The position numbers and the translations under genes are program-made. This document shows positions 2,857 through 20,900 of a stretch of DNA of 43,612 bases, piece after piece. The stretch is from positions 1 to 43,612 of the forward strand of contig JAHECW010000025.1 in assembly GCA_024641545.1 (NCBI GenBank), read 5' to 3'. This DNA is from Acidobacteriota bacterium (GTDB taxonomy: Bacteria; Acidobacteriota; Thermoanaerobaculia; Thermoanaerobaculales; Sulfomarinibacteraceae). Position 1 is the stretch's first letter, and every line of letters begins with the position of its first letter. Below the pieces are notes generated by a model, which worked only from the letters and a program-made list of their open reading frames with translations, did not search any database and was not told the DNA's origin.

Positions 2857-3560
2857 TGACGAGCGGCGCGAATCCGCTGGTGAGCGTCGACGACGTCACC
2901 AAGACCTACAACCGCGGCGCTCCGGACGAGGTTCGGGCGGTGCGCGGGGTGTCGACATCGGTCTCGGCGGGGGAAGTCCTCGTCCTCGAGGGCCCGAGCG
3001 GTTCGGGGAAGACCTCGCTGCTCACCATGATCGGCTGCATGAGCCGTCCGACCTCGGGTCAGGTCGCGGTCGACGGCCGCCGGGTGTCGCGCCTCTCGGA
3101 GGTCGCCCTGACATCGATTCGGCGCTCGACCTTCGGTTTCATCTTCCAGCACCTCCACCTCATCCCGAATCTCTCGGTCGAGGACAACATCATGATCCCG
3201 ATGGTTCCGACGGGACTCTCGCCGGTCGAGATGAAGCAACGGGTGCAACGAGTGCTGGCCGAGATGCACCTCGAACACCGCCGGACGGCCCTCGCGGGCA
3301 GGATCTCCGGCGGCGAGCAGCAGCGCACCGCCGTCGCGCGGGCGCTGGTCAACCGGCCGTCCATCGTCATCGCCGACGAGCCCACCGCCCATCTCGACAG
3401 CGAGCTGTCATCCGAGCTGCTGGAGATCTTCGCCGATCTCAACGCGAGAGGCACAACCGTCATCATCGCGACCCACGACCCGCGGGTCATCGACCACCCG
3501 ATCGTCCACCGGCGGCTGCTGCTCAGGGATGGCGAGGTCGTCGGAGAGCACGCGCCGTGA
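2853..3560 (+). CDS. ABC transporter ATP-binding protein, LolD/MacB-type
   Basis: A 235-aa ATPase with every expected motif: Walker A GPSGSGKT (residues 47-54), signature SGGEQ (152-156), Walker B IVIADEP (171-177) and the H-loop ATHD with His208. Length and the EVRAVRGVS segment match the LolD/MacB/FtsE subgroup that pairs with FtsX-type permeases. The start is the first ATG of ATGATG at 2853, which overlaps the permease stop. The frame continues upstream without a stop, but the upstream part is out of frame with the permease and has no family similarity. It should energise the 1699-2856 permease from the cytoplasm. The end overlaps the next GTG start by GTGA. Confidence 0.93.
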   Translation: MMTSGANPLVSVDDVTKTYNRGAPDEVRAVRGVSTSVSAGEVLVLEGPSGSGKTSLLTMIGCMSRPTSGQVAVDGRRVSRLSEVALTSIRRSTFGFIFQHLHLIPNLSVEDNIMIPMVPTGLSPVEMKQRVQRVLAEMHLEHRRTALAGRISGGEQQRTAVARALVNRPSIVIADEPTAHLDSELSSELLEIFADLNARGTTVIIATHDPRVIDHPIVHRRLLLRDGEVVGEHAP

Positions 3561-4564
3561 TCCTCCATCCGGGTGTCCTCGGTCTGCTCATCGGAGGCGC
3601 GGTGGTCGTCGCGCTGATGGTCGTCGGCTCGCTCGTCGGGCTGCAGATTCTGCGCGCCTGGGACCCCTCTTCGAGCTCCGAGAACCAACTCGCTCTCGAG
3701 CGCCGGACCTATCTCGTCTCGGCCCTGGTCGGTGTCGCCCTGTGGATCGAGATCGGTTCGGCGCTGCTCTTTGTCCACACCGCCGAAGATCTCCACGAGC
3801 TCTTTGTCGGCGCCATGTGCGCGACCGGCTCGCTCAACGCCAACCCGGTGGGGTGGTGGGTGCTCGCGACCAAAGGGGCCATGGTGCTGCTCTTCCCGGT
3901 CTGGCTGGCGCTCAACGGTCTCGACCAGCGCGCCGGCGACTACCCGGTGGTGCGGTTGAAGTACGGTCTGCTGGTGGTGCTGACACCCATTGCGCTCGCC
4001 GATCTCGTGCTCCAGATACAGTACTTTCGCGGGATTCGCCCGGACATCATCACCTCGTGCTGCGGGTCGCTGTTCTCCGAGTCCGGCGATCACCTCACCA
4101 GCGACCTGGCTTCCGTGCCGGCCGCGGGGGCGCTGCCGCTCTTCGGCCTCGCTTCGGCCATCTTTCTTGCGGCCCTGGCTTGGGCCCGATTCGGCCGGCG
4201 GCCGGTGTCGATGGGGGTGGTGGCGGTCCTGGCTCCGGTCATCCTCGGGATCGGGATCGCTTCGATCATCTCTTTTGTCTCGGTGGCGTACTACGAGCTG
4301 CCCACCCACCACTGTCCCTTCGACCTCTTTCAGGGATCGAGCCGGTACGTGGGGTATCCTTTGTTGATCAGCCTCGTCACAGCGGTCGTATCGGCGGCGT
4401 TGCCCGGGATCCTGCACCCCCTGGCGCGCCGGTCGGACCTGGATGGACTGGTGGCGAAATCGGAGAAGAAATGGCTCACCGTCTCAGTTGCAGCGTACTC
4501 GGTCTTTCTCGTCTTCGCGGTCTGGCCGCTGGTTTTCGGCAACCTCGCCCTGGAGCTGATGTGA
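3557..4564 (+). CDS. Eight-helix integral membrane protein of the copper operon
   Basis: A 335-aa membrane protein starting at GTG 3557, within the stop of the ATPase gene (GTGA overlap). About eight hydrophobic helices are visible, at residues near 5-28, 52-75, 93-118, 133-158, 188-210, 216-245, 263-286 and 305-333. Between helices lie conserved-looking polar segments: MCATGSLNANP, a DYPVVRLKY segment, and DIITSCCGSLFSES with a vicinal Cys pair. Another Cys and several His (THHCPFD) face the same compartment by simple topology. These could bind metal or heme. I cannot assign a named family with confidence. Its tight coupling to the transporter and SCO1 genes suggests a role in copper-site maturation or electron flow. 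Confidence 0.8.
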   Translation: MILHPGVLGLLIGGAVVVALMVVGSLVGLQILRAWDPSSSSENQLALERRTYLVSALVGVALWIEIGSALLFVHTAEDLHELFVGAMCATGSLNANPVGWWVLATKGAMVLLFPVWLALNGLDQRAGDYPVVRLKYGLLVVLTPIALADLVLQIQYFRGIRPDIITSCCGSLFSESGDHLTSDLASVPAAGALPLFGLASAIFLAALAWARFGRRPVSMGVVAVLAPVILGIGIASIISFVSVAYYELPTHHCPFDLFQGSSRYVGYPLLISLVTAVVSAALPGILHPLARRSDLDGLVAKSEKKWLTVSVAAYSVFLVFAVWPLVFGNLALELM

Positions 4565-5184
4565 CTCTCGCCCGGACGAGCCGCGAACGGCGGGACCCGC
4601 GACGCATCGCCTGTCGCGGCCTGCGCCGCGCTTCGGCTCTCGTCACCGCCGCCGCTCTTCTTGCGGGCGTGCCGCTGGCGGCGGCCCCGCCCTACACCAC
4701 CGCCGAGATCACCGTCGCGCTGCCCGATGTGGCCCTCATCGATCAGGACGCGCAGGTCGTCAAGCTCCATGAGCTGGTCGAGGGAAGGGAGGTCGTGATG
4801 GTGGACTTCATCTTCGGCACCTGCACCACCATCTGCCCGATCCTCTCGGCCGGGTTTTCCAACCTCCAGCGCCGGATGGGATCGGGCCCCGGCGGGCCGA
4901 CCCTGATCTCCGTCTCCATCGATCCCGAGCACGACAGCCCGGAGATCATGACCACCTACCTCAAGCGGTATCGGGCGCAACCCGGATGGTCGTTCCTCAC
5001 CGGCGACCGCGATGACATCGACACGGTCATGCGTGCCTTCGACGCCTATATCCCGAACAAGATGTCGCACCAGCCGATTACATTCATCAAAGCGACGGCG
5101 CCGAATCAATGGGTGAGGATCGACGGGCTCGTGTCCACGGCGGATCTCATCGCCGAGCTCGAGAAGATACGTGGAGGTGAGTGA
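4561..5184 (+). CDS. SCO1/SenC-family copper chaperone
   Basis: A 207-aa protein with a basic N-terminus, a hydrophobic export or anchor segment (residues about 25-42, ending AAAPP) and a thioredoxin-like fold. The SCO signature C88-T-T-I-C92-P is present, and His170 in KMSHQP sits where the third copper ligand of SCO proteins is found. DFIFGTC, ISVSIDPEHDSP and WSFLTGDRDD are typical of the family. SCO proteins deliver copper or reduce cysteines for Cu sites such as CuA of cytochrome oxidase. No oxidase gene is seen here, so the cupredoxin proteins downstream are the likely targets. The GTG start at 4561 overlaps the previous stop (ATGTGA). It ends in TGATG with the next gene. Confidence 0.92.
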   Translation: MTLARTSRERRDPRRIACRGLRRASALVTAAALLAGVPLAAAPPYTTAEITVALPDVALIDQDAQVVKLHELVEGREVVMVDFIFGTCTTICPILSAGFSNLQRRMGSGPGGPTLISVSIDPEHDSPEIMTTYLKRYRAQPGWSFLTGDRDDIDTVMRAFDAYIPNKMSHQPITFIKATAPNQWVRIDGLVSTADLIAELEKIRGGE

Positions 5185-6878
5185 TGAAGATGCGCGCCGG
5201 ACGGGTCGGATGTCTCGCACTTCTTTCAGTCGTTGCGCTCCTCCCGGTGCCGGCGTCGGCCGAAGAAACGGCCGCTGCGGCGGCTCCGGTCGCTTCGTCC
5301 GACCACGGCTGGCGGATGTACCACGAGGGCATCAACCCCGACGGGGAACCCATGCGGGCCACGGTCCAGGGCGATATCCCGGTGGACGGCACCATGTTCA
5401 CCTGTGTCAGCTGCCACCTTCGCAGCGGCCTCGGGTCGCTCGAGGGCACGGTGATCACCCTGCCGACCAACTGGGGCTACCTGGGGCGGCCGCTGGTGGG
5501 CGCCGACATGTCCGACTCCGCCCGCGAGCGGCTGCCGAAACCGCTGAAGCGGGGCGAATTCCGGCCGGCCTATGATGACCGGTCGTTGGCGAGGGCGATC
5601 CGCATGGGCAAGGACCCGAACGGACGTGTCTTCGACCTGGTCATGCCCCGGTATGCGCTCGACACGAACGAGATGGACACGCTCATCGGCTATCTCAAGC
5701 GGCTCTCGGCCGAGGTCTCGCCCGGTGTCACCGAGTCAACCCTGCACTTTGCCACCGTGATCACCGACGGAGTCAGCGAATCCGACCAGAAAGCAATGGT
5801 GGCCGTCCTCCAGGCGCATGTTCAAGACCACAACAGCCAGGTCCGGCACGAGGACGAAAGAAAGCGACGCGGACCGTTCTACATGCAGGAGAAGTGGGAT
5901 CCCTACCGGCGGTGGCAGCTTGATGTGTGGCGTCTGCACGGCGCCCCGGAGAGCTGGTCCGGCCAACTTGACGAGTACTACGAGAAACAACCGGTCTTCG
6001 CCCTCCTGGGTGGGATCAGCGCCGGGTCGTGGCAACCGATTCACGACTACTGCGAGCTTCATCAGATCCCCGATCTCTTCCCCATTACCGATTTTCCGGT
6101 GATCTCCGACGGCGACTGGTACACCGTCTATTTTTCAAAGGGTTTCTACCAGGAGGGTGAGGCGGCGGCTCGTTATCTTCGTCGGGCCGACGATGCGGTC
6201 AACGCGGCGCCACTCGTACAGATCTACCGTGACACACCCCGAGGCCGGGCGTACGCGCGAGGGTTTCGGGATACCCGCGAGCTGATCGGGATGTCGCCGC
6301 CGAGCGAACGCGTGGTTGCGGCGGACGAGGCTCTCAGCGCAGAAACCCTGAACGAGATCGTGGCCCAGAACCCCGGCGCGGTCCTCGCGCTGTGGGTCGG
6401 CGGAGACGATCTCCGGGCGCTGACGACCTTCGAGACGAACCCAAGGCCGGTGGCGACCATCCTGTCGGCGACCCTGCTCGGCGACAACCTTGCGGCGGTG
6501 CCTGAAGGCGTCCGGGGATTCACCCTGATCACCCAACCGACGGCGTTCCCCGAGGACAAGGTCCGAACCCGGCTCGCCATCGAACGGTGGCTCAAGATCC
6601 GAAACATCCCGGTCACCAATTACGAGATCCAGGCGAACATGTACTTCGTCGGCTGGAACCTCGCCGGCCTGGTCAAGATGATGCGGAATGAGGTCTACCG
6701 TGACTACTTCCTCGACATCGTGGACATGATGCGGGACCAGGACTACGCCGTCGGGGTTTATGAGAGGTTGAGTTTCGGACCCGGCCAGCGCTACGCCTCC
6801 AAGGGCTGCTATCTCACCGAGCTCACCGCCGGAGCCGAGCCGAGCCTCGAGAAGAAGAGCGGCTGGGTCGTTCACTGA
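5184..6878 (+). CDS. Monoheme cytochrome c fused to a periplasmic-binding-protein-like domain
   Basis: A 564-aa exported protein with signal peptide residues about 1-26 (LLPVPASAEE). Residues about 35-165 form a class-I-like cytochrome c. The heme motif is C74-V-S-C77-H78 and the probable axial Met154 lies in DLVMPRY, followed by a C-terminal helix (TLIGYLKRL). Residues about 185-540 resemble a type-1 periplasmic binding protein, with features such as FALLGGISAGSWQPIHDYCE, GFYQEGEAAARYL and GRAYARGFRD. The start ATG 5184 is chosen because GGAGG ends six bases upstream; the earlier in-frame GTG at 5181 is too close. It is translationally coupled to SCO1. A combined electron carrier and ligand sensor or scaffold is inferred. 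The bound ligand is unknown. Confidence 0.85.
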   Translation: MKMRAGRVGCLALLSVVALLPVPASAEETAAAAAPVASSDHGWRMYHEGINPDGEPMRATVQGDIPVDGTMFTCVSCHLRSGLGSLEGTVITLPTNWGYLGRPLVGADMSDSARERLPKPLKRGEFRPAYDDRSLARAIRMGKDPNGRVFDLVMPRYALDTNEMDTLIGYLKRLSAEVSPGVTESTLHFATVITDGVSESDQKAMVAVLQAHVQDHNSQVRHEDERKRRGPFYMQEKWDPYRRWQLDVWRLHGAPESWSGQLDEYYEKQPVFALLGGISAGSWQPIHDYCELHQIPDLFPITDFPVISDGDWYTVYFSKGFYQEGEAAARYLRRADDAVNAAPLVQIYRDTPRGRAYARGFRDTRELIGMSPPSERVVAADEALSAETLNEIVAQNPGAVLALWVGGDDLRALTTFETNPRPVATILSATLLGDNLAAVPEGVRGFTLITQPTAFPEDKVRTRLAIERWLKIRNIPVTNYEIQANMYFVGWNLAGLVKMMRNEVYRDYFLDIVDMMRDQDYAVGVYERLSFGPGQRYASKGCYLTELTAGAEPSLEKKSGWVVH

Positions 6879-7212: not shown

Positions 7213-7407
7213 TATCGACTGGTCACGCGAGTCCAAAACGTTCAAGACGTCAACGACGGACGACGAAAAGAAAGTGAGAGCGAGTGTGATCACGAATACG
7301 AAAACACGAAACGCCTCGAGGAAGAGATGCAATCGGTCTTCAGTCGACCAACCCAATCCCCGGTTTGCTGCCGGGATCGGCCAACGAGAGATTCAGGAGG
7401 AGAACTC

Positions 7408-10400
7408 ATGAGAACCAGAGTATGTTGTTGGGGAGCATCCGCGCCGAAAGCGACCATCGCTTTGCTGGCGCCGGTGCTGTTTCTGGCCCTGGCGTTCGCG
7501 GCCTCGCCGGCTGCGGCCCAGACCCTCACCGTGGTGGACGGATCGAACAACGCGATCTCGATCACCAACTACCAGTGGGTCGTGGAGGAGGATCTCACCT
7601 ACCACGTGCCCTTTGACTCCAGTGGCAACCCGGTGCCCGAGAACGACATGCAGTCGCTCAGCTTCCACCGCAGCTATATGCCGCTGGTCGCCGAGGGAAC
7701 CAGCGAAGCTGGGTTCTCGTTTGTCCGTGATGCCGCCAAGTACTACTTCGTGTCGGTGCTTCCCGACTCCGGTTACAGCATCGGCGGCGCCCAGATCGCG
7801 CCCGGTGACACCGAGGTCACGGTCTACGTCAACCCGCACCCGATCCCAACCGCGCAGATCGTAGTCCAGGTCTGCGAGGACAAGGCCCCGATCAACAACG
7901 TCTGCGATCCCGGCGAACAGCCCCTCCAGGGCTTCAAGATCGTGCTCGAGGACGGCGGCGGCCGCTACGGCATGTCCGCCGGTGTCCAGAGCTACGACGT
8001 CTGGGGCAACCCGCTCGGGACGACCTACCTCGACAACGTCGGCACCGTCGACCGGCTCGGCAGCGGCATCGACACCGACGCCGAGGGCATGGCCTACATC
8101 AAGAACCTCGCCCCCGGCAAGTACGGCATCATCGTCGTGCCGCCGCCCAACACGACCTGGGTGCAGACCGCGACCATCGAGGGCAAGAAGGTCATCGACG
8201 CCTGGGTCAAGGCCAACGAGCCGCCCTTCTTCGCAGAGTTCGGCCCCCCGGGGCCGCATGTCTTCATCAGCTTCGTCGAGCCGTTCAACGCCCTGGCAGG
8301 CGCCAGCGGACCCGATGTCTCGGGCCAGGTGGTGAACCTGCACATGTCGCGGCCGCCCGAGTTCGCCATGTACGCCGGTGGTCCGTTCCCGCACACCAAC
8401 TGCTGGATCGGACTCAATGACTTCTCGACCGGTGTGCCGCTCGAGGGTCTTTACGCCCAGCCGTGCAGCGACAACGGCTTCTTCACGATTCCCAACGTTC
8501 CTCCCGGCCAGTACCAGATGGTCATCTGGGACGACAACCTCGACCTCGTCTTCAACTCGATGGCGCTGACCGTCAAAGCCGACGGCAGCTGCAACGACCG
8601 CAACACCTGCGACCTCGGGCTGGTCCCGACCAGGCAGTGGTTCGCCCGCACCGAGAATTGGGTCTTCAACGACCTCAACGGCGACGGCCGTCGCCAGTGC
8701 AATACCGAGGCCTGCAACAGCATCGCCGCCGGCGACGAGGTCGGCATTCCCGAGCAGGCGGTCAACCTCCGCTGGCGCGACGGCACCATGTACCAGAGCG
8801 CCCCGACCGACCTCACCGGATTCGTGCCGTTCGACGAGACCTTCCCGTTCTTCAGCTGGCTCGTCGCCGAGGTCGACTTCGCCCGCTTCAAGGCCACCGG
8901 TGCGACCTTCTACACCGATGACGGCGGCCCGATCGATCCTCTGAACCCCAACTCCTGGGACAGCAACCTCAAACCGCAGCACCAGGGCAACCCGGCCGAT
9001 CCGGGGATGTGGATCCACAACGGTTACAACGGTGAGGCCGGCGACGCGCGCACCGAACAGGGCGTCGTCCTCACCCAGGCCTTCCAGGCCTTCCTCGGTC
9101 AGACCAACGTGATCGAGTGGGGCAAGGCGCCCTACGGCGCCGGCGAGAACGGCGGCATCAGCGGTATCGTCTTCTACTCGGTGACCCGCGCCGAGGACGA
9201 TCCGCGCTACGGCGGCGCCGAACCGTGGGAGCCGGGCATTCCCGGTGTCACGGTCAACCTCTACGATGCGGCCGGCACCACTTTGCTCGCCACCGCGACC
9301 ACCGACAGCTGGGATGCGACCCCGCCGGAGAACTGCCAGATCGGCAGCAGCATCCCCTTCATCTACAACGAGGGCCAGGCGGATCAGCGCTACATCGACT
9401 GCTACGACGGGATCCGCAACTGGAACCAGATGCGCCCCGGCGTTTTCGACGGCGGCTATGCCTTCGACGAGATCTGTCAGGGCGGTCTCGACCCTGACGG
9501 CACCTGCACCACCGGCACCCTCACGAGCCCGATTCCGAGCGGCCGCTACATCGTCGAGGTGGAGCCGCCCAACGGGTACCAGATCGTCAAGGCGCAGGAC
9601 AAGAACGTCGACTTCGGCGACGAATATGTCCAGAGCCCCCTGCTGCTGCCCGCGGAGTGCGTGGGTGCTACCTATTCCGTGCCCCAGTACCTGTCGCTCA
9701 ATGACCGGCCGTCGGTGAGCGACCTCGACAAGGTCGAGGCGGCGCTCGCCGGCCAGACCCTCAACCTCTGCGACCGTAAAAAGGTAGCGGTGTCGGGCGG
9801 CAACAACGCCGCGGCCGACTTCTTCCTCTTCACCCCGGTGCCGATCGCGGCGCACGCGACCGGCTTCATTCTCGACGACACCGCCAACGAGTTCGACCCG
9901 AACTCGCCGCAGTTCGGCGAGAAGTACGCGCCGCCCTTCCTGCCGGTGTCGATCCGCGACTGGACCGGCCGCGAGATCGGCCGCACCTTCTCCGACGCCT
10001 ACGGCCGCTACAACTTCGTCGCGCCGTCGACGTGGACCAACAGCCTGCCGCAGCCGAGCGGCATGTCGCCCAACATGCTGACGACCTGCATGAACGACCG
10101 ACTCCGGCCGGACGGCACGCCCGATCCGCTGCACAACCCGCAGTACTCCCAGTTCTGCTACACCTTCCAGTACATGCCGGGCTCGACGGTCTACCTCGAC
10201 ACCCCGGTGGTCCCGGTCTCGGCCTTCACCGGTTCCGACCAGTTCCCGCTCGACTGCGAGTTCGGCAACCGAACCCCGCGCATCTACTCGGCGACCAACG
10301 CCGCCGGCCAGGGCCCGTACTTCACCGGCAACGCCAATGACGTCAGCCGCAACAACTTCGTGATCACCTCCATGGGGATCGTCGAGGTTCCCAACCCCGA

Positions 10401-12621
10401 GTACCAGGGCGTCAACGGCCCGCCGACGGTGCCGAAGAACATCACCCGCGACTACGGCTTCGGCTGCCCGTTGGTGCCGGCCGTGACCATCGGCGGCGTT
10501 GCGATGACCGGCCTCACCTGTGGGGTGGACGGCAACGGACGCGAAACCGTGACCGGCAAGGTCAACGGCAACGGCGGCCAGCTCGTGGTGACCCGCAACG
10601 ACAACCGGATGACTTCGATCAACTCGGTTTTCGTCCAGCGCAACCTGCGCCAGGGCGGCGCCCTCAAGACGGTGCCCGGCCAGTTCCCGACCATCCAGGC
10701 GGCCATCGACGCGGCCAACGAGAACGACCTCATCCTGGTCGCGCCCGGGACCTACACCGAGATGGTCATCATGTGGAAGCCCGTCCAGCTCCAGGGCTGG
10801 GGCGAGGGAACCCAGATCGATGCCGTCAAGAACCCGCCCGAAGCGCTCCAGACCTGGCGCAACGCGGTCCAGGGCCTCGTCGAGGGGAACTACCCGACCG
10901 CCAACCCGCCCGGCTACACCGTGACGCTCGTGCCCGGTCAGGAGGCCGCCTTCGGCGGTGTCGAGCCGGCGGCGCTGTGGACCGAGGAGGGCACCGGGAT
11001 TCTGGTGCTCGCCAGGGCCGGAGCGTTCAACGTCAATCGCAACCAGGGCGCCCGGATCGACGGTTTCACCGTCTCGGGAGCCGACACCGGCGGCGGCATC
11101 ATCGTCAACGGGTTCGCTTCGAACATGCGGATCTCCAACACCCGCGTCATCAACAACAGCGGCCAGTACGGCGGCGGGATCCGCCTCGGCCATCCGACGC
11201 TCATCGCCCAGGGCGCAGCCGCCTGCGGCAACGGCGTCGATCTCTGCTACCCCGACGCCCAGAACGACAACATCGTGATCACGAACAACTACATCGGCCA
11301 GAACGGCGGCATGAACGGCGCCGGTGGCGGCGTCTCGCTGTGCACCGGGTCGGAGAACTACCGCCTGACCGACAACTACATCTGCGGCAACTTCAACCTC
11401 GAGCAGGGCGGCGGCGTGGCCCACTTCGGCTTCTCCGGCAGCCCCAACAACGGGTCGAACGTGATCGCACGCAACGTGATTGCTTTCAACGACAGCTTCG
11501 TCCAGACCCCCGGGTTCTCGCCCTCAGGGGGAGGCCTGCTCATCACCGGTCAGCCGGCGCTCTTCGGCGAGCCGCTGAGCCGTGGGACGGGGAATGTCCT
11601 CGTCGACAGCAACCTTCTCATCGGCAACGCGGCCGAAGCCGGTGACGGCGGCGGGATCAGCCTGCGCCAGGTCAACGGCATGGATGTCGCGAACCGGCCG
11701 AACAACAACAACCAATGGCACTCGGTCACGATTGTCAACAACATGATCGTCAACAATTTGTCGGCCCTCGCCGGCGGCGGGATCGCCTTGGCCGACGCCG
11801 CCAAGGTGGTGATCCGGCACAACACGATCGCCAACAACGACAGCACGGCGACGACAGGCGCCGCCTTCCCCCTCGGGTCGCCGACCCTGTCGACCGGACA
11901 GCTCGGCGCCGGCATCGCCGCCCGCGGCCACAGCCAGGGGCTTCTGAACGCCCTCGGCGCCATCGCAGGCTTCTCCAACCCGACGCTGGTCGACAACATC
12001 GTCTGGCACAACCGAAGCTTCCGCTTCAACGGCCTCGGAACCACTCCCGACCCGAACCTCGGCACGTCCTGGTTCGGCCTCTGCCCGGCAGTCGGCGGCG
12101 ACGCTGCCAACTGCGACGCAACGGTCGTCGGTGACTGGTCCGGGGATCAGGCCTACTACAGCGACCTGAGGGTGATCGGCGCCGCGGGGAGCCTGACCTG
12201 CACCGGCTGCATCGTGACCGGCGGGGCCGACCCGCTCTTCGTCTCCGAGTACGCCACCGGCAGCCGGGTTCCGACCATCAACCAGCCGGAGCAGCAGACC
12301 ATCTTCGTGCCGGCGGCCTTCGACGAGGGCGGCAACTACATCCGCCTCCGCTTCGGACCGCTGACGCGATGGGACACCCAAACCGGTGCGCTTTTCGGCG
12401 ACTACCACCTCCGGAGTGGATCTCCGGCCATCAACACGGCCGGCACCACTCAGCCCGGGTACGACTTCGACGGCCAACCGCGCCCCGAGCCGGGCACCAG
12501 GACCCTGCCGGACATCGGTGCCGACGAGGTCAATCCCCCCGGCGCCCTCAAGGTCCAGCAAGACGTCGGCGGCTTCACCGCCTACACCGACCTCGAGCTC
12601 GACAACGGCCTCGTCGAGTAA
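7408..12621 (+). CDS. Giant secreted SdrD/Cna-B-like and beta-helix protein (1737 aa)
   Basis: AGGAGG at 7395-7400 sits seven bases before ATG 7408, which opens a clear signal peptide (residues about 1-36, ending AASPAAAQ). Residues about 35-930 contain several prealbumin-like SdrD/Cna-B-type units. These show phrases such as NDLNGDGRRQCNTEA, GISGIVFY...GIPGVTVNLYD and SDAYGRYNFVAPS. Residues about 1090-1560 are a right-handed parallel beta-helix with the PTIQAAIDAANENDLILVAPGTY entry and many N-N/G-G-G-I rungs. The end (YHLRSGSPAINTA...PDIGADEV) resembles the choice-of-anchor-Q type of tail. Many Cys occur in spaced pairs. No catalytic motif is evident, so a surface scaffold or binding partner for the cupredoxin proteins is inferred. 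It is the first gene after the sigma-54 promoter. Confidence 0.88.
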   Translation: MRTRVCCWGASAPKATIALLAPVLFLALAFAASPAAAQTLTVVDGSNNAISITNYQWVVEEDLTYHVPFDSSGNPVPENDMQSLSFHRSYMPLVAEGTSEAGFSFVRDAAKYYFVSVLPDSGYSIGGAQIAPGDTEVTVYVNPHPIPTAQIVVQVCEDKAPINNVCDPGEQPLQGFKIVLEDGGGRYGMSAGVQSYDVWGNPLGTTYLDNVGTVDRLGSGIDTDAEGMAYIKNLAPGKYGIIVVPPPNTTWVQTATIEGKKVIDAWVKANEPPFFAEFGPPGPHVFISFVEPFNALAGASGPDVSGQVVNLHMSRPPEFAMYAGGPFPHTNCWIGLNDFSTGVPLEGLYAQPCSDNGFFTIPNVPPGQYQMVIWDDNLDLVFNSMALTVKADGSCNDRNTCDLGLVPTRQWFARTENWVFNDLNGDGRRQCNTEACNSIAAGDEVGIPEQAVNLRWRDGTMYQSAPTDLTGFVPFDETFPFFSWLVAEVDFARFKATGATFYTDDGGPIDPLNPNSWDSNLKPQHQGNPADPGMWIHNGYNGEAGDARTEQGVVLTQAFQAFLGQTNVIEWGKAPYGAGENGGISGIVFYSVTRAEDDPRYGGAEPWEPGIPGVTVNLYDAAGTTLLATATTDSWDATPPENCQIGSSIPFIYNEGQADQRYIDCYDGIRNWNQMRPGVFDGGYAFDEICQGGLDPDGTCTTGTLTSPIPSGRYIVEVEPPNGYQIVKAQDKNVDFGDEYVQSPLLLPAECVGATYSVPQYLSLNDRPSVSDLDKVEAALAGQTLNLCDRKKVAVSGGNNAAADFFLFTPVPIAAHATGFILDDTANEFDPNSPQFGEKYAPPFLPVSIRDWTGREIGRTFSDAYGRYNFVAPSTWTNSLPQPSGMSPNMLTTCMNDRLRPDGTPDPLHNPQYSQFCYTFQYMPGSTVYLDTPVVPVSAFTGSDQFPLDCEFGNRTPRIYSATNAAGQGPYFTGNANDVSRNNFVITSMGIVEVPNPEYQGVNGPPTVPKNITRDYGFGCPLVPAVTIGGVAMTGLTCGVDGNGRETVTGKVNGNGGQLVVTRNDNRMTSINSVFVQRNLRQGGALKTVPGQFPTIQAAIDAANENDLILVAPGTYTEMVIMWKPVQLQGWGEGTQIDAVKNPPEALQTWRNAVQGLVEGNYPTANPPGYTVTLVPGQEAAFGGVEPAALWTEEGTGILVLARAGAFNVNRNQGARIDGFTVSGADTGGGIIVNGFASNMRISNTRVINNSGQYGGGIRLGHPTLIAQGAAACGNGVDLCYPDAQNDNIVITNNYIGQNGGMNGAGGGVSLCTGSENYRLTDNYICGNFNLEQGGGVAHFGFSGSPNNGSNVIARNVIAFNDSFVQTPGFSPSGGGLLITGQPALFGEPLSRGTGNVLVDSNLLIGNAAEAGDGGGISLRQVNGMDVANRPNNNNQWHSVTIVNNMIVNNLSALAGGGIALADAAKVVIRHNTIANNDSTATTGAAFPLGSPTLSTGQLGAGIAARGHSQGLLNALGAIAGFSNPTLVDNIVWHNRSFRFNGLGTTPDPNLGTSWFGLCPAVGGDAANCDATVVGDWSGDQAYYSDLRVIGAAGSLTCTGCIVTGGADPLFVSEYATGSRVPTINQPEQQTIFVPAAFDEGGNYIRLRFGPLTRWDTQTGALFGDYHLRSGSPAINTAGTTQPGYDFDGQPRPEPGTRTLPDIGADEVNPPGALKVQQDVGGFTAYTDLELDNGLVE

Positions 12622-12687: not shown

Positions 12688-13944
12688 ATGGAACGCAAAT
12701 GGCTCTACACAACGCTGATGGTGGTAGCGGTCGCGCTGGTGCTGGTCGCAGCTCCGGCATCCGCCAGCCACATCGACGTCCAATGTCCGGGTGACACTAA
12801 TGGCAACGCCCTCCGGGACGGTGCAGAAGTGTGGCCCGCCAACCAGCAGTGCATGCACCTCACCTCGGGGGACGGCTACGTGACGATGGCCGACGGCCGG
12901 GTGATGTACATCTTCGGTTTCGCCAATGCCACCGGCTGGAATCCCGCCAACGTCATGACCGACGGCATCCTCGCCGCGGCCTACCCAGGACCGATCATCG
13001 CGCTCGACGAGGGCAGTGAGTTCTACCTCAGCCTGTCCAACGTCGGCATGCTCGTGCGCCCCGACCTCTTCGACCCGCACACCGTCCACTGGCACGGTTT
13101 CCCGCAGGCTTCGTCGGTCTTCGACGGGCTGCCCGAGTCCGGCCTCGCCATCAATATGGGCGCGACCCTGACGTACTACTACAACGTCCAGGATCCCGGC
13201 ACCTACATGTACCACTGCCACGTCGAGGCCACCGAGCACATGCAGATGGGCATGCTCGCCAACCTCTATGTCCGGCCCAAGCAGAACCGGCTGCCCGGCG
13301 GCACCAACCTCAACGGCTTCACCCACCAGGCGGGCTTCAAATACGCCTACAACGACGGTGACGGCTCGACCCGCTACGACGTCGAGGCCCCGATCCAGAT
13401 GAGCTCCTTCGACAGCAGCTTCCACGATGCTTCGGAGAGCGTCCAGCCGTTGCCCTTCGCGCTGATGCGCGACGACTACCCGATGCTCAACGGCCGCGGG
13501 TACCCGGACACGGTCGTCGATATGGCGCTGCCGGCGCCGGCCGAGAACGGCGGCAAGACGTCGCAGTTCGAGGACGCGCTGATCACCGCGCAGCCGGGCC
13601 AGAGGGTCCTGCTCCGGATCTCCAACATCTCGATCACCCGCTACTACACCCTGCAGACGCTGGGACTCCCGATGACCGTGGTCGGTCGCGACGCCAAGCT
13701 GCTCCGCGGTCCGAGCCCCGATGGTGGGATCACCCCGGGCAAGAACCTCTACTACGAAACCAACTCGGTGAGCCTGGGCGGCGGCGAGACCAACGACGTG
13801 ATCATCGAGATCCCGGCCGACGCCAACCCCGGCGACACCTACTTTCTGTACACCAGCAACCTGAACTACCTCAACAACGGTGATGAGGAGTTCGGCGGCA
13901 TGATGACCGAGATCCGCGTCGGCTCCGGTCTGCTGCTCAACTGA
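12688..13944 (+). CDS. Multicopper oxidase subunit A: cupredoxin protein with HWHG and type-1 copper site
   Basis: A 418-aa exported protein (signal residues about 1-27, ending ASASHID) behind AAGGAG. It has two cupredoxin domains. Domain 1 holds H131-T-V-H134-W-H136-G and H176-C177-H178-x5-H184-x4-M189. That supplies four trinuclear-site histidines (134, 136, 176, 178) and a complete type-1 set (His131, Cys177, His184, Met189). Domain 2 (about 230-418) keeps the fold but lacks ligands: YTLQTLGLPM stands where HPxHxHG would be, and YTSNLNYLNNGDEEFGGMM where the second Cys-His motif would be. A complete multicopper oxidase needs four His pairs and this protein has two. Subunit B carries the other two. 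Expected location is periplasm or cell surface. The oxidised substrate is unknown. Confidence 0.88.
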   Translation: MERKWLYTTLMVVAVALVLVAAPASASHIDVQCPGDTNGNALRDGAEVWPANQQCMHLTSGDGYVTMADGRVMYIFGFANATGWNPANVMTDGILAAAYPGPIIALDEGSEFYLSLSNVGMLVRPDLFDPHTVHWHGFPQASSVFDGLPESGLAINMGATLTYYYNVQDPGTYMYHCHVEATEHMQMGMLANLYVRPKQNRLPGGTNLNGFTHQAGFKYAYNDGDGSTRYDVEAPIQMSSFDSSFHDASESVQPLPFALMRDDYPMLNGRGYPDTVVDMALPAPAENGGKTSQFEDALITAQPGQRVLLRISNISITRYYTLQTLGLPMTVVGRDAKLLRGPSPDGGITPGKNLYYETNSVSLGGGETNDVIIEIPADANPGDTYFLYTSNLNYLNNGDEEFGGMMTEIRVGSGLLLN

Positions 13945-13955
13945 GGAGGATGACG

Positions 13956-15335
13956 ATGAAACACTTCATGAGACCAAAAGCAGCGGTTCCCGTCGTCCTC
14001 GGGACTGCGGTGCTCCTGGCGTTGACCGCAGCGCCGGCAGCGGCCGCCATCCAGGGCATCGAGGGAACCCTCACCGGGACCACCCGCTCATTCGTTCTGA
14101 CGGCGAAGGCGGACTACGTGACCAGCGCCGACGGCGCCAGCCTCCTGATCTGGGGCCTGACCGACGGCACCCGGGCTCAGTACCCGGCGCCGACCCTGAT
14201 CGTCAACCAGGGTGAGACCATCGAGATCACCCTCAACAACGAGCTCGCGGCGTCGACCTCGCTCATCTTCCCGGGCCACGACGTGGCCGGGGCGGGTGAT
14301 TGCACGGATACCTCGGGGCTGCCTGCCCCGGGGCCCGGCGACGCCACCGGAAGAATCACCTGCGAAGCGCCGGCCGCCGGCTCGGCGACCTACACGTTCC
14401 CGGCTGAGAACGCCGGCACCTACCTCTACCACAGCGGCACCAACGCGGCGCTGCAGTCGGAGATGGGCCTCTTCGGTGCGATCATCGTCCGGCCCTACGG
14501 TTTCGACGAGCTCAACCCGACGGCCTACGGCCACCCCAAGACCGGGTACGACCGGGAGTACCTCTTCATCCTGTCGGAGATGGACTCGCGAATTCACGAC
14601 GCCGTCGAGTTCGGCGACTCGCTCGCGGGAACCGAGTTCCTCGGCGACTACTTCTCCAACTACTGGTTCATGAACGGCCGCACCGCGCCGGACACGCTGT
14701 CCGAGCCCAATGTGCCCTGGTTGCCGACCCAGCCGTACAACACCCTGCCGCGGATGACTCCCGGCGAGACGGTGCTGATCCGCGTCGTCGTCGCCGGCCG
14801 CGACGCCCACCCCTTCCACCATCACGGCAACCACGCTCTGATCGTGGCCCGCGACGGCCGGATGCTCGAGAGCGCGCCGGGCCAGGGTCCCGATCTCGGC
14901 TACCAGGTCTTCACCACCCAGGCGATCCCGGGCGAGACCTACGACGCCACCTTCACCTGGACCGGTGCGAACATGAACTGGGACATCTACGGCACCCCCG
15001 CCGACGGGATGCCGGCGCACACCTGCAACGGTCTGGCGACGCCGTCTCCGGGCTTCGACCCGGTGACCCACGAGTACTGCCCCGACCACGGCAAAGCGCT
15101 GCCCGTGCACCTTCCCGAAAACCTCGACCTGGCCTTCGGCGGGTTCTGGAGCGGCAGCCCCTTCATGGGCGCCGCAGGGGCTCTGCCTCCGGGCGAGGGT
15201 GGCCTCAACCCGAACTCGGGCTACACCTTCATGTGGCACTCCCACACCGAGAAGGAGCTCACCAACAACGACATCTTCCCGGGCGGCATGCTGACGATGC
15301 TCATCGTCGAGCCCCCCGGCACCGTGATCGAATGA
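13956..15335 (+). CDS. Multicopper oxidase subunit B: cupredoxin protein with HPFHHHG and HSH
   Basis: A 459-aa exported protein. ATG 13956 is preferred over 13950 because AGGAGG (13944-13949) directly abuts 13950 but is six bases from 13956. The signal peptide is residues about 1-30 (TAAPAAAA). Domain 1 is degenerate (SLIFPGHDV; YLYHSGTNAALQSEMG). Domain 2 carries H285-P-F-H288-H-H290-G-N-H293 and W-H428-S-H430-T-E-K-E...FPGGM. These are the third and fourth copper-binding motifs of multicopper oxidases, with Ser429 replacing the type-1 Cys. The protein thus offers four trinuclear-site His and no type-1 copper, exactly complementing subunit A. The gene starts 12 bases after the A stop, so roughly equal synthesis is likely. 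Confidence 0.88.
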   Translation: MKHFMRPKAAVPVVLGTAVLLALTAAPAAAAIQGIEGTLTGTTRSFVLTAKADYVTSADGASLLIWGLTDGTRAQYPAPTLIVNQGETIEITLNNELAASTSLIFPGHDVAGAGDCTDTSGLPAPGPGDATGRITCEAPAAGSATYTFPAENAGTYLYHSGTNAALQSEMGLFGAIIVRPYGFDELNPTAYGHPKTGYDREYLFILSEMDSRIHDAVEFGDSLAGTEFLGDYFSNYWFMNGRTAPDTLSEPNVPWLPTQPYNTLPRMTPGETVLIRVVVAGRDAHPFHHHGNHALIVARDGRMLESAPGQGPDLGYQVFTTQAIPGETYDATFTWTGANMNWDIYGTPADGMPAHTCNGLATPSPGFDPVTHEYCPDHGKALPVHLPENLDLAFGGFWSGSPFMGAAGALPPGEGGLNPNSGYTFMWHSHTEKELTNNDIFPGGMLTMLIVEPPGTVIE

Positions 15336-15351
15336 GCAGGGGAGTGACACC

Positions 15352-17229
15352 ATGAAACACCAAAGCATCAAGACATTGCTGGGGAGAACGGTACTGGTGG
15401 CGGCCCTGCTCGCCCTGGTTGCCGGCTCCGCCTCGGCGGCAACCTATAACCTCAGGGCCGGCGCCGCCACCGTGAACTACGGAACGGCCGTCGAGATGTG
15501 GGGCTACGCACTGGTCTCCTTCGATCTCGAGGACGGCAGCGGAGTCCAGGCCGGAGCAGACACCGTCATGGTTCCCGGCCCGATCATCTACGTGCCGGCC
15601 GGCCAGAGCCTGACCATCAACCTCAGCAACGGTCTCGGAGTGACCACGTCCGTCGTGGTTCAAGGCCAAACCCTCACGGGTACGCCACAGTTCAACGCCG
15701 ACGGCCGGGTCACCGCCTTCACCGACGAGGCGGCGCCGGCCACCGGCACCGCCAGTTACACATGGGCCGCCGGCGAGCTCCGGCCCGGCACCTATCTCTA
15801 TTCCAGCGGCAGCCACCCCGCCGAGCAGGTCCACATGGGTCTCTACGGCGCGATGGTGGTCGATGCCGACAGTGACGGTGATCCGGCGACCCTCGAGGCC
15901 TACCCCGGCGTCTTCTATGATCGGGACATCGTCGTCCTCTACAGTGAGGTCGACCCGGCCCGGCACAACGACACGGTCTCCAAGACCGCAAAGGCCCTCA
16001 ACTACAAACCGAAGTACTTCCTGGTCAACGGTGATCCGACCGGCAACAGCGTCCTGACCGATCCGGCCGCAGACATCGACTCGCGGGTGCTCCTGCGCTT
16101 CGTCAACGCCGGTCTCCTCAGCTACGTTCCGACCCTGCTCGGCGAGGATCTCGAGTGGGTCGCCGAAGACGGCAACATGTACCCGTACTCTCGCGTGTCC
16201 TACAGCGCCCTCCTGGCGGCCGGCAAGACCATGGACGCGTTTTGGGTTCCGACCACGGTGGACCGCCACGCGCTCTACGACCGCCGGTTGCACATGACCG
16301 CCAACGGATACCCCAACGGCGGCCTGCGCGCATTCCTCGACTCCGGATTCGTCAATGTGCCGGTGGCCGATGCCGGGACCGATTCGTCTCACGTGGCCCT
16401 CGGCACCCCCATCACCTTTGACGGGTCGGCGTCAGCCGGCTCGGGAACCTACGTTGCCTGGAACTGGTCCCTGGTGGGCTTCCCGGCCGGCAGCGCCGCG
16501 GCGCTCGTGGCGGACGCTGTCGATCCCAGCATCGTGCGCATCACTCCGGACGTTCCGGGCACCTACACCGCCCGCCTGGTGGTCACCGATGACTCCGGGT
16601 TGTCGAGCGCTCCCGACACGGTCAACGTCTTCACCAACCTGCCGCCGGTGGCCAAGGCCGGCGCCGACCAGGCGGTGGATGTCGGCGCGGTGGTCAGCCT
16701 CGACGGCAGCCTTTCCTACGATCCGGACTCGGTCGACACGATCCAGAGCTATGACTGGGTGGTGACGGCGCCGAACACCTCGACCTTCGCGCTGACCGGG
16801 GCCCTGACCTCGTTCATCGCCAATCAGGCGGGGACCTACAGCGTCGATTTGACCGTCAGTGACGGTGAGCTTACCGGCATGGACGCCATGGTCGTCACGG
16901 CCTCGGTCCACGTCAACCAGCCGCCCAACGCCGCCGCCGACTTCTTCCAGGTCCTCTGGAAGTCCACCGGCAACGCGCTCAACGTGTTGGTCAACGACAG
17001 CGACCCCGACGGCGCCATCAATCCGGCGAGTCTGTCGATCGTGACCAGCCCGATGGCAGGTGCCACTGCGGTTCCGACCCAGTTCCCCGCAGCTTCCGGC
17101 AACTACGTCATCATGTACACGCCGAAAACCGGCTTCAAGGGAACCGACTTCTTCACCTACTCGATCTGCGACAGCGAGGTGCCCGCGGCCTGCTCGGTGG
17201 CGCAGGTTCGGGTGAATGTCGTCAAATAA
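15352..17229 (+). CDS. Cupredoxin-like subunit C with PKD and cadherin-like tail (no copper ligands)
   Basis: A 625-aa exported protein (signal residues about 1-29, ending AGSASAAT), with a GGGGAG ribosome site and start 17 bases after B. Residues about 30-330 align in layout with subunits A and B: an MWGYAL strand, PGPIIYVPAGQSLTINL, and YLYSSGSHPAEQVHMGLYGAMVV. The copper motifs are gone: VVVQGQTL replaces HWHG and no HCH or HSH remains. Residues about 335-425 and 430-520 are two PKD-like Ig domains (ADAGTDSSHVALG; AKAGADQAVDVGAVVSLDGSLSYDPDS). Residues about 525-625 are a cadherin-like unit (NVLVNDSDPDG, GFKGTDFFTYSI). A structural third pair of domains completing a six-domain ring, plus an attachment stalk, is the simplest inference. 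Confidence 0.82.
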   Translation: MKHQSIKTLLGRTVLVAALLALVAGSASAATYNLRAGAATVNYGTAVEMWGYALVSFDLEDGSGVQAGADTVMVPGPIIYVPAGQSLTINLSNGLGVTTSVVVQGQTLTGTPQFNADGRVTAFTDEAAPATGTASYTWAAGELRPGTYLYSSGSHPAEQVHMGLYGAMVVDADSDGDPATLEAYPGVFYDRDIVVLYSEVDPARHNDTVSKTAKALNYKPKYFLVNGDPTGNSVLTDPAADIDSRVLLRFVNAGLLSYVPTLLGEDLEWVAEDGNMYPYSRVSYSALLAAGKTMDAFWVPTTVDRHALYDRRLHMTANGYPNGGLRAFLDSGFVNVPVADAGTDSSHVALGTPITFDGSASAGSGTYVAWNWSLVGFPAGSAAALVADAVDPSIVRITPDVPGTYTARLVVTDDSGLSSAPDTVNVFTNLPPVAKAGADQAVDVGAVVSLDGSLSYDPDSVDTIQSYDWVVTAPNTSTFALTGALTSFIANQAGTYSVDLTVSDGELTGMDAMVVTASVHVNQPPNAAADFFQVLWKSTGNALNVLVNDSDPDGAINPASLSIVTSPMAGATAVPTQFPAASGNYVIMYTPKTGFKGTDFFTYSICDSEVPAACSVAQVRVNVVK

Positions 17230-17422: not shown

Positions 17423-17908
17423 ATGGAAACAAAGAGAATCGTGCGACGGACGGGACCGGGTTGGACATCGGTCGTGGTCCAGGTGGTGGTCATCGCGGCA
17501 GGGCTGTCGATCTTCGGCTGCGCGAGCACGAAGAATGACGTGCCCTCGGTGGCGCCTGCGGCCTCTGCCGAGGCGGCCCCGAGCCTGGAAGAACGTTGGG
17601 GCGTCGAGGTTGTCGCACTGCGGCTGACCGGTGCGAACTACATGCTCGATTTCCGCTACAAGGTGCTCGATCCCGAGAAGGCGGCGGAGCTCTTCGTCCA
17701 CGCCAACAAGCCGGTGCTGATCCACCATTCGAGCGGCGCCAGGCTCGAGGTGCCCAGACCCGCGAAAACCGGTCCGTTGCGGCCGACCAACCCACCCCAG
17801 GCCGGGCGCATCTACTTCATGTTCTTTTCCAACCCCGGCGTTGTTCGGCCGGGCGACGAAGTGACGGTGAAGATCGGCGATTTTGAAGCCGACCTGGTGG
17901 TGGAGTAA
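17423..17908 (+). CDS. Probable lipoprotein, unknown function
   Basis: A 161-aa protein behind GAAGGA. A long N-terminal segment ends LSIFGCAST, a plausible lipobox with Cys at residue 33, although Phe at -2 is unusual. The mature part is a compact beta-rich domain with phrases such as YMLDFRYKVLDPEKAAELF, KTGPLRPTNPPQAGRIYFMFFSNPG and EVTVKIGDFEADLVVE. I have the impression of a conserved uncharacterised secreted family but can name none. The gap to the subtilase start is three bases, so the two are probably co-transcribed. No clear promoter was found upstream; TATACG at 17362-17367 lacks a matching -35. Confidence 0.8.
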   Translation: METKRIVRRTGPGWTSVVVQVVVIAAGLSIFGCASTKNDVPSVAPAASAEAAPSLEERWGVEVVALRLTGANYMLDFRYKVLDPEKAAELFVHANKPVLIHHSSGARLEVPRPAKTGPLRPTNPPQAGRIYFMFFSNPGVVRPGDEVTVKIGDFEADLVVE

Positions 17909-17911
17909 GAC

Positions 17912-20900
17912 ATGTTTCGACCTGTGAACCGGATTTCGAGGACGGTTTTCGTCGCGGTGGCCGTTGCGCTCGGCGCAAGCCGGGTCTACGGCGGCGGTCT
18001 GAGCCCCGAGCTTTCGGATGTCCTTCGAACCGCCGTCCCCGACGACGAGATTGCGGTGATCATCGAGCTTGCCGACCGTCTCGATGTCGACGCCCTGGCA
18101 TTCCCGACCACGATCGCCCGAAGGGTCGGCGTCGCAACCGCGCTGCGGGGCAGGGCGGTCACGGCCGAGGCGCCGGTTCAAGTTTTTCTGGCTGACCGAG
18201 GCGCAACGAGCGTGCGCTCGTTGTGGGCCATCGGCGGGATTGCCGCCCGCGTCCGCGCCGAGACCATTTTCGAGCTCGCCCGCCTGCCGGGTGTCGCCGG
18301 CGTTCGTCTCGACGGCGTCGTGGCGCTGCCCGAGGCGCCGCCGAAAGCGGCGGCCGCCGGCGGTTGGAATCTCGAATTGGTCGGCGCCCCCGATCTCTGG
18401 GCGCGGGGCATCGACGGCGACGGTGTCGTCGTGGCGGTGGTGGATTCTGGTGTCGATGCCGCCCACGCGGACCTCGGCCCGCGCTGGCGGGGTGGCGACA
18501 ACAGCTGGTTCGACCCCCATGACGAACACCCGACGCCCTACGACGCCGACGGTCACGGCACCCAGGTCGCCGGTCTCACCATCGGCGGCGACGCCACCGG
18601 CTCCGCCGTCGGAGTTGCGCCGGGTGCGCGGTGGATCGGCGGCAAGACCTTCGACGACAACGGGCTGTCGACCTTCAGCGCGACCCACGAGATCTTCCAG
18701 TGGCTGCTCGACCCCGACGGCAGCCCGAGCACCGACGACGCGCCTCATGTCGTCAACAATTCGTGGGGTTTTCCCGACCAGCCCGGGGAGTGCTTCGAAG
18801 AGTTCGCTCCCGACATCCAGGTTCTGCGTGCGGCCGGCATCGCCGTCGTCTTCTCGGCCGGCAACAGCGGGCCGAACTCGGCGACGAGCGTCAGTCCCGC
18901 CAACAACCCCGGCGCGTTTGCGGTCGGCGGCAGCGATGAGTCGGACGAGGTGATGACGAGCTCGAGCCGCGGCCCTTCGGCGTGCGGCGGCGGCATCTTC
19001 CCCGCCCTCGTGGCGCCGGGTGACGGGGTCCGCACCGCGGACCTGACCTTCGGCGGGGTTTTCCCGGAAGCGACCACCGATGTCCTCGGCACCTCCTTCG
19101 CCGCGCCCCACGTCGCCGGCGCCATGGCCCTGCTGGTGAGCGCCCACCCGCGGGCGACCGTCAACCAACTCGAACAGGCGCTGCTCGCCGGCGCCGAGGA
19201 CATCGGGCCGGACGGCCCCGACGACGAATCGGGCTATGGGCGTCTCGACATCGTCAAAGCCGAGGCGGCGCTGGCCGCCATGGTCGGCACCGGCGCCGCC
19301 ACGGTCTACACCAACGAGGGCGCGTATCTCTCGGCACTCGCAGGCCAGAACACGATCAGCGAAGGCTTCGAAGACGACGTCGCGTGGGCCGCGGCTCGCA
19401 TTCCGGCGACCACTGCGAGTGTCGCGAGCCAGGGGGTGACCTGGACATCCAACCACCCCGACAACGGCATCACCACCGGTTTCGGCGCCGCCCGGACCGG
19501 CAACTGGGGACTCTACTCGCTGCCCCACGGCGACCAAACCTTGACGCAACCCGGCGACTTCATCACGGATGGCTTCGCGGGTTCGAGCTCGACACCGATG
19601 ACCGCGGTCGGCGGTTGGTTCGTCAGCACCTCGGGCGGCAACGTCGCACTCGTCCTCGACGGCGACGACGCCAACCCGGTCAATCTCGGTCCGGTCGGGG
19701 TGGTGCACACGTTCCTCGGCGCTGTGGTTGCCGGCACCTTCAGCACCTTTGAATTCCGCGAGACGGAGGGCACGGTCGAGGATCCGAAACTGGTTTTCGT
19801 CGATGACGTCTCCATTGGCGTGACCGCCGGCGGCGGCAACCGGCCGCCGGTCGGCACCATCCTGCAGCCGGTCGCGGACGTCACGGTTGGCGTCGGAGAA
19901 GCCGTCTTCTTCGCGGGCGCGGTGAGCGACCCGGACGGTGACGGGATCACCGTTCTTTGGGATTTCGGCGATGCGACGACCTCGACCGCGCTCACGCCGG
20001 GCAACCACAGCTACGCGGCCGCAGGCTCCTACGCGGTGAGCTTCACCGCCACCGACGACCACGGTCTCGCCGATCCGACACCGGACACCCGGCTGGTCTC
20101 GGTGATCGATCCGCCGTCACCGCAGACCGGCGTCGTCGCCGGCGTGGCGAACTTCCCAGGCGCCCTCGGGAGTGACTGGCACACCGATCTCTTCCTGCAC
20201 AACGCCTCTTCGAGTGCCGTCTCGCTGTCGCTGGCGTTCAGCCCGGCGAACGGCACTCCGGGCGATCCGGTGCCCCTGACGGTTCAACCCGACCAGACGG
20301 CGGCCTTCGAGGACGTTGTCAACACCGTCTTCGGCATCACCGGCAGCGGTGCGATCCATTGGGCGGTGGTTTCCGGGGACGCCGCCGGGCTTCTGGTTTC
20401 GGCCAATACCTACAACCGGGTGGATGCCAGCCACCGTTTCGGCCAGCAGATCCCGGGCGTTCGTTGGTCCGATGTCTCACCGGAAGGGACGTCGGTCTGG
20501 CTGCCGGCCCTGGCGGGTCCCTACCGGAGTAATCTCGGCTTCGCGACCGACGAGACCTGCACCACGGTCACCATTCGCGGCTACGATCGGATCGGGCTTC
20601 AAGTCGCAGCGAGGGTCCTCGATGTCCAGCCCCTGACCTGGATCCAGCTCAACGGGATCTTCCGCAACGTGTTTCCCGGTCTCATCGGCGATCCCGATGC
20701 TGTGACCGTCGCCGAAAGCGTCCACCGGTTTGAGGTTGTAGGAGAGAACGGGCGCGTGGTGGCCTACACCAGCATCATCGACAATCAGACCAGCGACGGC
20801 AGTTATATGCTCGGCCAGCTGCCGGCCGCCGGTCTGCAGCCCTCGTGGCTTCCGGGCGCGGCCAAGATCAGCGGGGCGAACGACAGCCGGTGGCGAAGCG

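Follow-up and report, generated by a model that had tools for sequence, protein, structure and literature searches.

The copper ligands of a multicopper oxidase are divided over two of three neighbouring genes, A, B and C, in the window (the whole 43,612-nucleotide stretch of DNA that was analysed), and this division is real, ancient and strictly conserved. A type-1 site and four His pairs, the ligand set of a multicopper oxidase, are provided by A and B jointly and by neither of them singly. The trio is likely best explained as three proteins that would be secreted separately and form one oxidase, with a site between A and B and with C in the ring, and the findings point to a multi-protein form of a well-known enzyme that is apparently undescribed. 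No description of heteromeric or split multicopper oxidases was found in the open-licence literature searched, and to our knowledge the known two-, three- and six-domain multicopper oxidases all carry their copper ligands within one gene product. The first-pass annotation of this DNA had proposed that copper ligands are divided over A and B within a set of neighbouring genes at 12688-17229, and the ORF list, the Pfam matches and the ligand positions all agree with this. The features of the three genes are as follows.

12688..13944, + strand: gene A, a two-domain cupredoxin protein with predicted Sec export (ORF, Pfam, ligand positions, alignment with PDB 3g5w, 47 homologues).
13078..13095, + strand: A H131 (type 1) with H134 and H136 (trinuclear); invariant in 47/47, aligned with HTIHWH of 3g5w.
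13213..13254, + strand: A H176-C177-H178, H184 and M189, comprising a trinuclear His pair and the type-1 Cys, His and Met; invariant in 47/47, aligned with HCHVNVNEHVTMRGM of 3g5w.
13950..15335, + strand: gene B, a two-domain homologue with half of the putative trinuclear site in domain 2 (ORF, Pfam, 3g5w alignment, homologues).
14808..14825, + strand: B H287-PF-H290-H-H292, in which H290 and H292 are the trinuclear His; invariant in 46/46, aligned with HAIHTHG of 3g5w domain 2.
15237..15245, + strand: B H430-S431-H432, a trinuclear His pair with S431 at the type-1 Cys position; invariant in 45/45, aligned with HDH of 3g5w domain 2.
15352..17229, + strand: gene C, a two-domain homologue without copper ligands (residues about 26-331), followed in this genome by PKD and Big_9 domains at the C-terminal end (Pfam, profile comparison; adjoins B in 43/43 testable loci).

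The three ORFs, of 418 (A), 461 (B) and 625 (C) amino acids, lie on the + strand with gaps of 5 bases between A and B and 16 bases between B and C, and Cu-oxidase_3 is matched above its Pfam cut-off in all three proteins. All residues of a type-1 site, together with two trinuclear His pairs, are in domain 1 of A, and A domain 2 has no ligands; the ligand set previously assigned to A (H131, H134, H136, H176, C177, H178, H184 and M189, in domain 1 only) is correct, as is its numbering. Domain 1 of B is without ligands, and its domain 2 has two His pairs and a Ser in place of the type-1 Cys. The first-pass annotation had named these B ligands and the Ser correctly, but its B positions are 2 too low since they were counted from Met3; the B residue numbers used here (H287, H290, H292, H430, S431, H432 and E436) count from the first ATG. 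Two further B residues, His287 at a type-1 His position and Glu436 at the second, are invariant despite the lost type-1 Cys. C has the two-domain layout without ligands that had been described for it, and no ligand set is present in C here or in its homologues.

Two-domain oxidases coordinate their trinuclear copper with residues from two protomers, and are assigned to types A, B and C by the location of the type-1 copper (PMC13151041). The type-C enzymes (PDB 3g5w; also 2zwn) resemble the trio in having the type-1 copper in domain 1, four His pairs and a domain 2 without the type-1 Cys. The 3g5w chain displays this type-C pattern as HTIHWHG and HCHVNVNEHVTMRGM in domain 1 and HAIHTHG and HDH in domain 2. 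The best PDB profile match of A domain 1 is 3g5w, a complete oxidase, and B domain 2 (HPFHHHG, HSH...PGG) aligns with domain 2 of the same chain. A domain 2 aligns with a stretch of 3g5w domain 2 as well, with its ligands lost (YTSN where 3g5w has HDHV). Because A domain 1 and B domain 2 match 3g5w and the other domains are stripped, A and B have each lost what the partner kept. The two domains and N-terminal type-1 copper of type C are thus found in the trio (HCH...H...M in domain 1 of A, Ser at the domain-2 Cys position of B), whereas none of its chains has all four His-pair motifs. In 3g5w, one gene has all four motifs and would give three equal sites in a homotrimer; in the trio, by contrast, two paralogues carry two motifs each and the third paralogue carries none.

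Homologues were gathered in the window's class and phylum, in one large class belonging to this phylum, and by scanning a genome collection with B. In total, 47 A loci were detected in 37 genomes from at least four phyla, namely the window's phylum, Thermodesulfobacteriota, Planctomycetota and Myxococcota. The members outside the window's phylum are Desulforhopalus (Thermodesulfobacteriota), a Planctomycetota MAG, and two Myxococcales MAGs and Anaeromyxobacter oryzae (Myxococcota). Some of the 37 genomes have two to four copies of the A locus. Three or four A copies each are present in five large genomes from one class of the window's phylum (G715, G816, G613, G619 and G631), which indicates that the system expanded there.

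A is directly followed by B in 46/46 loci in which the contig extends far enough, and C comes next after B in 43/43; the search for A-B-C synteny recommended in the first-pass annotation thus recovers the same order, with the genes adjoining, in every testable locus of at least four phyla. All eight A ligands are invariant (47/47), as are H287, H290 and H292 of B (46/46) and H430, S431, H432 and E436 of B (45/45, one B ending at a contig edge). Across all homologues there are two His-pair motifs in A, two in B and none in C, and complete sites in A or B, named beforehand as the observation that would count against a split enzyme, were looked for among these homologues and were not found. Given the A-B-C linkage and the invariant ligands in 47 loci from 37 genomes, the division is not the product of decay in one genome, and the invariance of both halves over such a distance makes it hard to argue that either half is useless.

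No A-B gene fusion occurs among the surveyed loci; at each of these loci A, B and C are encoded separately, and with three genes per locus the six cupredoxin domains are not on one polypeptide as they are in six-domain oxidases. An apparent A-B fusion in locus L019 proved to be an assembly-gap artefact, in which the ORF crosses undetermined bases (XXXX) and B keeps its own signal peptide. Another oxidase of the window's own genome (G000) was also considered as a supplier of the missing halves, and was rejected. The only other Cu-oxidase_3 match in that genome, on contig 160 (L102:70-2454, - strand), is an ordinary three-domain, single-chain oxidase of 794 amino acids with all four His motifs of its own.

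Profile-profile comparison detects homology over both domains, with a probability of 99.7 for A and B and of 100 for B and C. A joint maximum-likelihood tree resolves A, B and C as one clade each with near-full support, and places B and C together; the three clades imply that the split predates the spread over these phyla, or that the genes spread as a unit. The distance matrices of A and B are correlated at 0.97, as expected of linked genes. The best profile match of C is 4bxs, a factor V relative. Coagulation factors V and VIII resemble the trio in their degenerate cupredoxin domains and, unlike it, are animal proteins without oxidase function.

The first-pass annotation had suggested a trinuclear site common to A and B, and one such site is likely, well ahead of any other reading, given motifs that are complementary, invariant and always adjacent and that match both domains of 3g5w. 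A domain 1 and B domain 2 are the only ligand-bearing domains and so provide the only complete set. A, B and C would be paralogous two-domain multicopper oxidase subunits, secreted separately and assembling into one oxidase, in which domain 1 of A (type-1 copper and two His pairs) would face domain 2 of B (two His pairs) across the A-B interface, and a single trinuclear copper site would form there. Electrons from an outside donor, which may be a metal, a phenol or a neighbouring cytochrome c, would enter at the type-1 copper of A and pass through Cys177 to His176 and His178, and O2 would be reduced to water at the A-B site. C would be a structural subunit in the third place of a trimeric ring. 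A 1:1:1 ring of A, B and C is slightly favoured as the form of the assembly. In a head-to-tail ring each domain 2 would meet the next domain 1, so that one ring of A, B and C would have exactly one A-domain-1/B-domain-2 interface, and such a ring is plausible because no testable locus lacks C and because the homology of C extends over both domains.

A two-gene version, in which B' is followed by A', is found in two genomes of the window's class (L121:4363-6617, on contig 22 of G060, and L122:4840-6848, on contig 9 of G061), and is rare, occurring in 1/396 genomes of a phylum sample. A' has the type-1 copper ligands and its His pairs (HTIHFHG and HCHVDTVLHIERGM in L121; HSIHLHG and HCHIDTALHMERGM in L122), and B' has the remaining His pairs in domain 2 only, as HFHG or HYHG and an HTH in which Thr replaces the Cys. 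A twin-arginine (Tat) export signal is present at the start of B' (MKRREFLKLGLG), and in both genomes A' lacks a signal peptide; in L121 the start of A' overlaps B' by ATGA. The Tat pathway exports folded complexes, and with the signal on B' only, A' is probably exported while bound to B'; this would indirectly support binding between such halves. When complete oxidases are included in a tree, A' joins A (94/85), and B' joins B and C (98/91). These groupings may reflect convergence, because the degenerate domain also varies between the groups. The A' proteins of L121 and L122 and the protein encoded at 21636-24398 of the window resemble one another in their C-terminal tails (DGFEGGDTSAWN; DGFETGNTSRWSN), which may be a lineage-specific sorting signal.

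Several genes near the trio recur in homologous loci, and in the window these are as follows.

3529..5184, + strand: ORF with an SCO1/SenC domain in its last part (about 4735-5064) and CTTICP, a likely copper chaperone; start uncertain.
5181..6878, + strand: cytochrome c (one CxxCH) joined to a periplasmic-binding-protein-like domain, a possible electron partner.
7327..12621, + strand: gene S, a 1764-amino-acid secreted protein with SdrD_B-like and other repeats (domain search, homologous loci).
17423..17908, + strand: gene D, a probable lipoprotein of 161 amino acids, conserved beside the cluster (homologous loci).

S, or a fused form of it, adjoins the cluster in most loci with long enough contigs; in L010 and L051 S and A are fused, and at least nine loci have S joined to C. 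These fusions indicate that S probably belongs to the same assembly as A, B and C, perhaps as an anchor or scaffold. The SCO1/SenC protein (CTTICP) and the single-haem cytochrome c fusion are found near ABC in the window, L010, L015, L017 and L042, with relatives of both in L039 and a relative of the cytochrome in L018, and their presence makes copper delivery and electron exchange plausible as accessory functions. In other phyla this pair is also found close to ABC, with position and orientation that vary. A secreted subtilase gene lies near the cluster in several loci (window 17912-21598, L009:12923-14854, L042:4279-6066), and the subtilases of L009 and L042 end in MopE-type putative metal-binding motifs.

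Structures were predicted with AlphaFold in two runs on the A-B read-through chains of L042, which are naturally in frame. Because the paralogues came out of register in alignments that mixed single rows of A, B and C, the row sets were picked by MAFFT trial. The resulting A-B models are of low confidence (pLDDT 61 and pTM 0.44 in run 1; pLDDT 72.5 and pTM 0.49 in run 2, with 26 rows). Foldseek recognises cupredoxin domains along the modelled chain, with matches to ceruloplasmin, factor V, the Mnx complex and laccases at E-values down to 5e-29. Query-normalised TM-scores for these low-confidence models are 0.22-0.28, with no superposition on known oxidases, and show that the domain arrangement predicted in these poor models differs from that of known oxidases.

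It is unlikely that A and B share a site in a ring of composition A2B or AB2, or in a higher oligomer, with C outside the catalytic ring as a link between the enzyme and S or the cell surface. Such a role would suit the extra PKD domains of C in this genome and the C-S fusions, and the B'-A' pair, which seems to work with no C gene within 11 kb, suggests that C is dispensable in some cases; however, C is present in 43/43 testable loci, and both of its cupredoxin domains are homologous with those of B, as expected of a ring subunit. A reading in which the proteins have no copper in common, with A as a single-site type-1 electron carrier, B and C as structural cupredoxin proteins and the remaining His pairs as relics, has very little probability. 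The low confidence of the A-B models, and an assembly that is itself deduced, leave some room for it, but relic His pairs would not stay invariant in 46-47 sequences across phyla while the sister domains lost all ligands. A nitrite-reductase-like complex, in which A would hold type-1 copper and the A-B interface a type-2 copper only, is extremely improbable: copper nitrite reductases do use intersubunit sites, with three His for the type-2 copper, and the first domains of A and B align with them at moderate scores, but A and B retain all eight trinuclear His, A has its best profile match in 3g5w, a complete oxidase, and a NirK-like function is rejected on the ligand count and on TIGR02376 (NCBIfam; 23-29 bits vs a cut-off of 296). 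None of the NCBIfam models reaches its cut-off on A, B or C.

The favoured A+B+C ring invites comparison with six-domain oxidases, which have been proposed to derive from triplication of a two-domain protein, and in which the trinuclear site lies between domains 1/6 or 2/3 and the bacterial type-1 copper in domain 2 (PMC3600357). Six cupredoxin domains and a single trinuclear site would be common to the proposed ring and to ceruloplasmin and MnxG-like proteins; the latter are single polypeptides, whereas the trio consists of three genes and has its type-1 copper in a domain of the first (odd) kind. In the Mnx complex, only MnxG is known to have the oxidase motifs, and MnxE and MnxF are small partners that are not known to be halves of a site. 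This complex of MnxE, MnxF and MnxG is a multimeric bacterial multicopper oxidase (PMC5622069), and its structure 9bxa is among the Foldseek matches.

The chances are about even that these genes represent a widespread and ancient hetero-oligomeric class of multicopper oxidases. In such a class, a type-C homotrimer would have been triplicated and its subunits specialised (one for the type-1 copper and half of the site, one for the other half and one for completion of the ring), giving a multi-gene counterpart of the six-domain chains, and B'-A' would be a minimal form exported preassembled. The trio resembles, at the gene level and without fusion, the triplication proposed in PMC3600357, with paralogues dividing the labour; as an unfused triplication step, it would make that idea testable in living bacteria. 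The operon would likewise offer the halves of a copper cluster in separately expressible and mutable form, and the trio would constitute a conserved, putative extracellular copper enzyme in several phyla.
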